DNA from: Halanaerobium saccharolyticum subsp. saccharolyticum DSM 6643
GTDB taxonomy: Bacteria > Bacillota > Halanaerobiia > Halanaerobiales > Halanaerobiaceae
NCBI RefSeq assembly: GCF_000350165.1
Contig: NZ_CAUI01000015.1
Location: 124,001-188,000 of the forward strand
Direction: 5' to 3'
Length of the DNA: 64,000 nucleotides
Part shown: in pieces, positions 50,444 to 52,153 of the stretch
How positions within the stretch are numbered: position 1 is the first letter of the stretch
How the letters are laid out: every line of letters begins with the position of its first letter
Translations under genes and position numbers: made by a program
The notes under the pieces: generated by a model
Databases searched by the model: none
Told to the model about the DNA's origin: nothing
Seen by the model: only the letters and a program-made list of their open reading frames with translations

Positions 50444-50788
50444 CTAGAGGATCGATTTAATCGATTCTAGTTTTTTGCGCAAATCTTGATTCTGGTCTTC
50501 AGCTAATATACCTTTAGCAGTCATCATATCTTCTAAATCATTTATATTTTTTCTGATTCTATTATACTTTTTCAATAATCCCAACTTTGCCTCATAGTCT
50601 TCTAAATTTTCCTCACTTCTATGTAAATGATCATAAACACCCTGTCGACTAATACCGATATTGTCAGCTATTTCCGAAAGGGATAAATCATTATAGAAGT
50701 AACTATTAATAATATTTTGCTGCTTTTCTGTCAGCAGCGACCCATAAAAATCAAATAACATTGTTATTTTAATTGTTTTCTTTAGCAA
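50444..50788 (-). CDS. ylxM: YlxM/p13 family DNA- or RNA-binding HTH protein
   Basis: Accessory protein encoded upstream of ffh; streptococcal YlxM stimulates SRP GTPase cycling. Sigma-70 region-4-like helix-turn-helix: LFDFYGSLLTEKQQNIINSY, then LSLSEIADNIGISRQGVYDHL. I place the start at the TTG at 50788 (LKKTIKITMLFDFYG), 5 bases after AGGTGA, which gives 114 residues as in Bacillus; the longer ORF to 50857 would run through the promoter. Confidence 0.88.
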   Translation of the reverse strand: MLKKTIKITMLFDFYGSLLTEKQQNIINSYFYNDLSLSEIADNIGISRQGVYDHLHRSEENLEDYEAKLGLLKKYNRIRKNINDLEDMMTAKGILAEDQNQDLRKKLESIKSIL

Positions 50789-50828
50789 TAAAATCACCTG
50801 TAAAGTTAATTTACTTAACACAGATGAT

Positions 50829-50857
50829 AGTATATGATATTTTGGAGCTTTTGTCAA
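50829..50857 (-). promoter_or_regulatory. consensus sigma-A promoter for ylxM-ffh-rpsP...rplS
   Basis: Reverse strand TTGACA (50852-50857), exactly 17-bp spacer, TATACT (50829-50834), about 40 bp upstream of the ylxM start. The -35 hexamer lies inside the outer arm of the large inverted repeat described next. Confidence 0.85.
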
Positions 50858-51178
50858 GCTAAAATTTCAAAACATCCTTAAATTTTTAATCAGTTAAGAT
50901 TGAGCCCTGATAAATATAATATCTTTCCAAATTAACTTTTAAAAAGAACTAAAATTCATAAACAAATTAAACTGCTTTACCCTCCTGATCAGTGCCTCCT
51001 GCACTGCAGTCAGCTGTAAACATCGTGTTTACAGAAGCAGTTTAATTATGTTTACTCATTAAGTTCTATTAGAAATAGCTAATAAGTCAGATCTATTATA
51101 TTTATCAGGACTCAATCTTTTCCATATCAATAAAACAAGATCAAGTTTTGAAATTTTAAGCTTGCAAAACTCTCTTTA
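50844..51178. repeat. 335-bp imperfect inverted repeat with branched head (ftsY-ylxM gap)
   Basis: The 441-bp gap between ylxM and ftsY holds no gene; most of it is one palindrome. Pairing blocks, outside to inside: CAAGCT-AAAATTTCAAAAC (from 50855) with its complement at about 51144-51164; a 23-24 bp block AGATTGAG(C/T)CCTGATAAATAT (50897-50920 with 51094-51117, one mismatch); AGAACT (50945-50950 with 51061-51066); TAAACA-AATTAAACTGCTT (50959-50977 with 51035-51055). The head has two arms: TGTAAACA/TGTTTACA (51014-51033) and CAGTGC/GCACTG (50990-51008). It could be a MITE-like element, a structured RNA, or both. Confidence 0.85.
50896..51119 (-). ncRNA. candidate 6S-like RNA (rod with central loop)
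   Basis: The inner 220 nt, read on the reverse strand, begin AAGATTGAGTCCTGAT and end ATCAGGGCTCAATCTT. They pair as a closing stem of about 24 bp, open into a central loop of about 25 nt on each side, then re-pair up to a branched head. This resembles 6S RNA, whose Firmicutes members, as I recall, often have GUCCUGAU and AUCAGGGC at their ends. A weak TTCAAA-17-TGATAT promoter lies just upstream. The head, with two AGGAGG motifs, is not typical. No covariance model could be run, so the call is tentative. Confidence 0.35.
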
Positions 51179-51229: not shown

Positions 51230-52153
51230 TTATTCTTCGCTGCTAAAAAGTGCTTCAATAAATTCGTCTGGATCAAAGTTTTGTAAGTCTTCTGCTGCTT
51301 CGCCAACACCAATTAATTTTATCGGAATCTGTAGTTCATTTTTAACAGCAATTACAATACCACCTTTGGCAGTACCATCCAGTTTAGTTAGAGCAACCCC
51401 ATCAACATCTACTGCTTCATTGAAAAGTTTCGCCTGAGAAATTGCATTTTGACCTGTTGTAGCATCTAAAACTAAAAGTACCTCTACTTCTGCATTTATC
51501 TCCCCTGCTTCTCTATCAATTACTCTTTTTACTTTTTTTAGTTCTTCCATTAGGTTTGTCTGAGTATGCAGACGACCAGCAGTATCTACAATTAAAAGAT
51601 CAACATCTTTGGCTCTAGCTGATTGAACTGCATCGTATGCTACTGCTGCTGCATCTGAACCTTCCTGCTGCGCAATAACATTAACTCCCAGACGGTCTCC
51701 CCAAATCTGCAGCTGCTCAATGGCTCCCGCTCTGAAAGTATCACCAGCTGCCAGCATAACTTTCTTACCCTGTTCTTTGTAACGGCCAGCAATTTTAGCA
51801 ATTGTAGTTGTTTTTCCAGCTCCATTAACACCTACAACCATGATAATATTAAGTTCTTTATCAAAGTTAAAACCACCTTCATCATTCTGCAGCATGCTTT
51901 TCAATTCTTTCTGAAAATATCCCATTAATTCTTCTGGTTCATTGATCTCTTCTTCCTTAACATCTTCTTTTAATTTTTCAATTAAAGCAAAAGTAGTTTT
52001 AACACCAACATCTGCCTGGATTAATACTTCTTCTAATTCTTCAAATAATTCATCATCAATATTACTTCTGCCGGTAAAAATATTAGTTACCCTATTTACA
52101 AAACCTTCTTTTGTTTTTTTGAGTCCATCTTTTAATCTCTGTAAAAATCCCAC
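51230..52153 (-). CDS. ftsY: signal recognition particle receptor FtsY
   Basis: Membrane-associated SRP GTPase receptor. Short form of 307 residues: N domain (about 20-95) without the long acidic A domain of E. coli, then the G domain with VVGVNGAGKTTTIAKIAGR near 108, DTFRAGAIEQL, DTAGRLHTQTN and TKLDGTAKGG. The start is a GTG at 52153 immediately after the smc stop (TAA then GTG), with AAGGAGG inside the smc end, so the two are translationally coupled. Confidence 0.96.
   Translation of the reverse strand: MGFLQRLKDGLKKTKEGFVNRVTNIFTGRSNIDDELFEELEEVLIQADVGVKTTFALIEKLKEDVKEEEINEPEELMGYFQKELKSMLQNDEGGFNFDKELNIIMVVGVNGAGKTTTIAKIAGRYKEQGKKVMLAAGDTFRAGAIEQLQIWGDRLGVNVIAQQEGSDAAAVAYDAVQSARAKDVDLLIVDTAGRLHTQTNLMEELKKVKRVIDREAGEINAEVEVLLVLDATTGQNAISQAKLFNEAVDVDGVALTKLDGTAKGGIVIAVKNELQIPIKLIGVGEAAEDLQNFDPDEFIEALFSSEE

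Follow-up and report, generated by a model that had tools for sequence, protein, structure and literature searches.

The Bacillus cereus bcr repeats are dispersed and have a conserved, foldable structure; they are likened to the element described here by description and serve as a lead only. RNA stems generally contain many G·U pairs and few A·C pairs, and compensatory change (covariation) is normally read as proof of RNA. Our element resembles the palindromic bacterial MITEs (NEMIS/Correia, ERIC, RUP, and similar elements) in being small, non-coding, intergenic, and AT-rich, with terminal inverted repeats, target duplications, and transcripts expected to fold into long stem-loops (reviewed in PMC2229807 and PMC10969869). 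It differs from them in that its terminal repeats and arms vary by lineage, and even by locus, whereas the forked head inside the element is conserved throughout Bacillota. In addition, its rod is longer and its duplications are 6-7 bp long rather than TA.

A further likeness is to the Bacillaceae-1 RNA, a motif that one study is said to have split into two classes. When the head of our element is read on the complementary strand, it likewise has two adjacent hairpins with UCCU caps. The Rfam model of that RNA lacks a rod, however, and one of the two Bacillaceae-1 loci considered here lies in a 16S-23S spacer. Ten copies of the Bacillaceae-1 RNA are reported from one genome, that of Brevibacillus reuszeri (PMC5764928).

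The palindrome between ftsY and ylxM

The 335-bp palindrome at positions 50844-51178 of the window (the whole stretch of 64,000 nt that was analyzed) is genuine and far above chance expectation. The inverted repeats that the initial annotation had placed there were recovered as a 26-nt pair (96% identity; the terminal repeats of Table 1), 25-nt outer arms (50849-50873 and 51145-51169, 80% identity), and a 13-nt inner pair (50965-50977 and 51035-51047, 100% identity). A 24-bp block described earlier does pair, its partner lying at 51095-51118, one base from the position first given. Folded as a single RNA strand, the 335 nt reached -102.1 kcal/mol (plus strand) and -124.7 kcal/mol (minus strand), with z-scores of -12.9 and -11.8, respectively; none of 100 shuffles reached either value. 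The folding of both strands that had been proposed as a check thus gave energies 12-13 SD below shuffles on either strand. The structure is, however, a composite of a 220-bp core and outer arms that are flank. An Rfam search of the window returned nothing relevant to the palindrome, and a plasmid DNA search with the window copy returned no match beyond chance.

Table 1 Features of the palindrome and its surroundings (window positions)
Feature	Position	Strand	Basis
ylxM-ffh promoter, TTGACA-17-TATACT	50829..50857	-	11/12 matches; conserved in relatives
Outer arm, host flank, ending in the -35 box of the ylxM promoter	50845..50873	-	Inverted repeats, gap comparison, promoter match
3' terminal inverted repeat, 26 nt, one mismatch to partner	50896..50921	-	Inverted-repeat search
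Core element, 220 bp	50898..51117	-	GATTGAG terminal-repeat start; length of 220-221 bp and GATT start as in full-length G038, G025, and G147 copies
Conserved forked head and inner rod	50945..51067	-	Covariance models R1 (127.6 bits) and R2 (110.5 bits), both with the window sequence among their members
Conserved box TATGAATTTTAG, other side of the rod's tandem G·A step	50949..50960	-	Consensus columns 200-215
Second tip hairpin, loop CAGGAGG, GA/GA step at base	50982..51013	-	Alignment of relatives, consensus
First tip hairpin, loop CACGATG	51014..51034	-	Alignment of relatives, consensus
Conserved box CTTAATGA, one side of the rod's tandem G·A step	51056..51063	-	Consensus columns 5-12
5' terminal inverted repeat, head-strand orientation, 26 nt	51094..51119	-	Inverted-repeat search
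Outer arm, inverted copy of the ylxM promoter flank	51145..51174	-	Inverted repeats; absent in species with a short ancestral gap

The ylxM promoter overlaps the outer right arm, and ftsY ends at 51230. Judging from the ribosome-binding site and from relatives, ylxM likely starts at the TTG at 50788 rather than at that at 50857. Directly after the promoter, a 32-nt near-palindrome, CATCTGTGTTAAGTAAATTAACTTTACAGGTG, was observed at 50795-50826 (minus strand). Nine other genomes of the genus carry it with at most one base different from the genus consensus, a looser form precedes ylxM in other families of the order, and it may serve the ylxM-ffh operon as operator or leader.

In a DNA search of 60 relatives, full-length copies were found at the same locus in G004, G005, and G009 (83%, 75%, and 75% identity, respectively) and a partial one in G003; the copies found elsewhere in these relatives had only ~100 nt of the middle in common with the window copy. 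The gene upstream in G004 is not ftsY, and the element is still beside ylxM; its position between ftsY and ylxM is therefore incidental. Only ~15 bp separate the ftsY stop from the ylxM -35 box in G007 and G002, G006 retains the outer sequence and has lost the core, and G001 has lost the element. From this comparison of gaps, the simplest history is a single insertion in an ancestor of a sub-clade, after which the promoter flank was copied and two losses followed. The reading of G006 as a site that had never received the element was ruled out, because the short-gap species G002 and G007 lack the extra sequence that is still present in G006.

The genome of the window (2.87 Mb, 23 contigs) holds a single clear copy. 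A candidate second copy (L102 1501-1608; G000 contig 20, 148740-148847) scored 21 bits and looks decayed. No target duplication was detected at the window copy. The genome comparison proposed at the outset thus returned one clear copy rather than many in the organism itself, and a copy at the same place in relatives of the same genus. The window copy is old, single in its genome, and common to those relatives.

Family distribution and mobility

A covariance model of the head found at least 80 copies in G039, at least 43 in G147, and fewer in ~20 further Bacillota genomes. Among the latter, at least 10 copies were found in G038, at least eight in G109 (Natranaerobius thermophilus, to whose plasmid it has an identical match), up to 8-12 per genome in several Halanaerobiales, and a few in two GC-rich members of the phylum; all of these counts are lower bounds, as only some candidates were scored. 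On contig 1 of G039 (1943483-1981554), ~13 heads lie on one strand, many of them ~2.1 kb apart, in tandem repeats of a segment that carries the element. Two heads in the same orientation, 62 nt apart, were also observed in G005 contig 14 (L065, 2021-2142 and 2205-2326). A phage DNA search with a G038 copy returned no match beyond chance.

In G038, identity between copies reaches 99.6% over ~230 bp, and these copies end abruptly in unrelated flanks. Terminal inverted repeats differ by genome (GATTCTGGTGCAAAAAGTC in G147, GATTAGAACACAAAAAGG in G038, and GGCTCTTTTATACTCC in G109). The 19-nt terminal repeat of G147 had 203 matches in its genome, vs. three for the reversed control; many of these are full 221-bp elements, and many are derivatives of 39-129 bp without the head, a mixture typical of MITE families. 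Of 24 G147 copies, 12 were flanked by target duplications with n = 6 when one mismatch was allowed (mean 4.2 and maximum 9 for shuffled pairings), and duplications with n = 7 flanked seven of 11 copies in G038/G025 (shuffled mean 2.6, maximum 6). Six copies of G109 hint at 8-9-bp duplications, a sample too small for certainty. The element is 220-255 bp long, which leaves no room for a transposase gene of its own. An autonomous partner with matching ends was not found; the 30 terminal-repeat sites read, of ~200 in G147, showed no transposase between paired ends.

Terminal inverted repeats, target duplications and dispersed copies (both in relatives), and the lack of an own transposase are the characters of bacterial MITEs. 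The reading as MITE-like rests on the near-identical dispersed copies, the terminal repeats, and the duplications in relatives. Of the three candidates first named (a MITE-like element, a long regulatory RNA, and a chromosomal structure site), it is the MITE-like element that these data favor. Many copies with target duplications, the pattern proposed as a sign of mobility, were present in G147 and G038/G025; the window copy is without a duplication.

Forked head and arms

On the minus strand, the head forms a three-way junction, in which a rod is followed by two hairpins capped CACGATG and CAGGAGG in the window. The branched head with two side-by-side hairpins, as initially annotated, is thus present in the window, and it is conserved in relatives. 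Tandem G·A steps occur in the rod, and the second hairpin has them at its base as well. Family-wide, both caps follow CA[G/C]GANG. The second hairpin is CAGGANG in more than 90% of heads, and the loop of the first is CGA or UGA in ~40% of heads, the window among these. The two caps are swapped in one relative (L069), and two G019 copies (L198 and L200, from 1201) have ~65 nt extra at the same site between the tip hairpins.

In a set of 11 sequences, 36 of the 48 pairs had changed on both sides, and 94.7% of cells were paired, vs. 73.5% when shuffled. Among 96 distinct heads, 47 of the 48 pairs had changed on both sides, with 89.5% of cells paired vs. 62.8% when shuffled; this alignment was fitted to the model and so leans towards it, and slid controls were 35-45% paired. 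Pairing is therefore conserved in relatives, where its absence would have spoken against a real structure, and compensatory changes have kept it.

The arms of Halanaerobium copies are unrelated in sequence between loci and complementary inside each copy. At a locus common to G001, G005, and G009, the arm sequence differs by species and is complementary in each. Arm extents were taken from extension with strict scoring, as lenient scoring ran into the flanks. One locus is kept in seven species (L063, L143, L152, L153, L155, L158, and L164); there, the right arm holds the last codons and the stop of the neighboring gene, and the left arm holds their inverted copy. The Halanaerobium loci have the head in common and not the arm sequence, so that their common origin as one TIR element is putative.

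The arms contained 138 G·U and 118 A·C pairs (P = 0.23; 66 independent loci, one copy per locus), counted with a scoring that treats every mismatch alike. The SRP RNA of the same class, used as a control, contained 111 G·U and 23 A·C pairs (Fisher P = 1e-8 against the arms). Compensatory changes in syntenic copies, which had been put forward as support for an RNA, were thus observed, but the excess of G·U over A·C that accompanies them in a structured RNA was not. G·A mismatches were more frequent than T·C mismatches in the arms (448 vs. 103), at least partly because of the conserved tandem steps, and this excess means that the head strand and its complement are not equivalent. To judge from these counts, the folded form looks more like DNA than RNA, although the low number of G·U pairs bears on that choice indirectly. 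Since there is no G·U excess and the arms change in sequence yet stay complementary, we favor a process at the DNA level for the arms; the conserved head would then be a single strand in folded form.

Selection and orientation

Between the window and G004, G005, and G009, identity at the fourfold-degenerate sites of ffh was 59-65%, which is below that of the element (75-83%). Within the orthologous heads, identity was 0.88 in unpaired columns and 0.70 in paired columns. Because the core is conserved above neutral sites, the window copy likely has some local role or has exchanged sequence with other copies; exchange is possible because the G005 copy has a head stem similar to those found elsewhere in the family.

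The modeled strand was antisense to both flanking genes at 42 loci and sense at 14 (66 independent loci, P = 2e-4); the window copy belongs to the minority class. Replication direction could cause this bias, and it is inseparable from gene direction as a cause, because gene direction follows replication.

Discussion

The palindrome is probably a copy of a MITE-like element, non-autonomous and non-coding, that has settled at this locus and is no longer mobile. A pure MITE leaves unexplained why the internal head, and not the ends, is best conserved. One alternative is a structured RNA, regulatory or acting in trans, that is distantly related to Bacillaceae-1 (RF01690) and has dispersed in the manner of a mobile element; on the plus strand here, it would expose two UCCU-capped hairpins. 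Copies of G038 scored 27.5-28.5 bits against RF01690 on the strand opposite the modeled head (E = 0.0013 on 226 nt). Reciprocally, if weakly, the two best places of model R2 within 5 kb were two genuine RF01690 loci (41 bits in the Planococcus plasmid record and 59 bits in that of Bacillus velezensis), again on the opposite strand, at 11.6 and 11.2 bits. That strand is also the one that runs with both flanking genes at 42 loci vs. 14. We nevertheless find this RNA somewhat unlikely: the score is under the gathering threshold of 35 bits, for which reason the element was not filed as a Bacillaceae-1 member, it was reached in one lineage only, and the window copy had no match. Moreover, G·U does not exceed A·C on either strand, unlike in known RNA, and on the strand in question the conserved G·A steps turn into unfavorable U·C mismatches. 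An outer inverted repeat seen by eye around the Planococcus locus was not above shuffles. One G019 copy (L166 1182-1338) matched the Rfam TwoAYGGAY RNA, another two-hairpin GGA-loop motif, weakly (29.5 bits, threshold 43). A minus-strand RNA might instead bind CsrA, its adjacent AGGAN-pentaloop hairpins on C-G closing pairs taking up one CsrA dimer. CsrA/RsmE sites are A(N)GGAX loops on a C-G pair, the N being absent in RsmZ SL3 and SL4 (PMC4005645). The second hairpin fits such a site, and csrA was found in 14 of the 15 genomes of the order that bear the element (vs. eight of 23 others) and in 11 of 11 such genomes in a phylum draw (vs. 285 of 398 overall). This co-occurrence is, however, confounded by phylogeny and genome completeness, G014 bears the element and had no csrA match, the CGA or UGA loops of many first hairpins, the window's included, depart from the site, and the modeled strand is mostly antisense to flanking genes; we regard CsrA binding as very unlikely.

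Template switching in replication can create and maintain stems (PMC8794818), and pairing could last by this process alone in an inert, functionless relic. The loss of the palindrome center in G006 and the deletion in G001 agree with such decay. Against it stand the unpaired positions and loops conserved in orthologous copies and the 75-83% identity of the element where fourfold sites have 59-65%, so that we hold a relic to be unlikely. An SRP-associated RNA, suggested by the place between ffh and ftsY, has only the genomic position in its favor. The SRP RNA gene lies on another contig, and other copies of the element adjoin unrelated genes; this distribution refutes the association, which is almost certainly wrong.

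For the MITE-like element that we prefer, a transposase acting in trans would have inserted it in the flank of the ylxM-ffh promoter before the species of one sub-clade of the genus diverged. It would then have been kept in five sampled genomes, including that of the window, lost from a sixth, and cut to its base in a seventh. Arm complementarity would come mainly from DNA polymerase switching template in the hairpin, such that one arm is copied onto the other, and the same switching would account for the inverted copy of the promoter flank that lies beyond the element. The tip may be kept by recognition as a folded strand, of DNA more likely than of RNA.

More broadly, we tentatively suggest that mobile palindromes of this kind form one family throughout the phylum. 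Their conserved signal would be the folded strand itself, a forked head with two like caps and G·A steps, while template switching would rewrite both arms jointly and could add inverted host flank to them; the Bacillaceae-1 RNA would be the core of its Bacilli branch. Such a set would make mutation-driven correction of arms separable from selection on structure, as covariation comes here without the G·U signature of RNA. The orphan Rfam family Bacillaceae-1 may be explained as part of a mobile element. In the window, the feature probably reached the ylxM-ffh promoter by insertion, and it is not part of the signal-recognition system.
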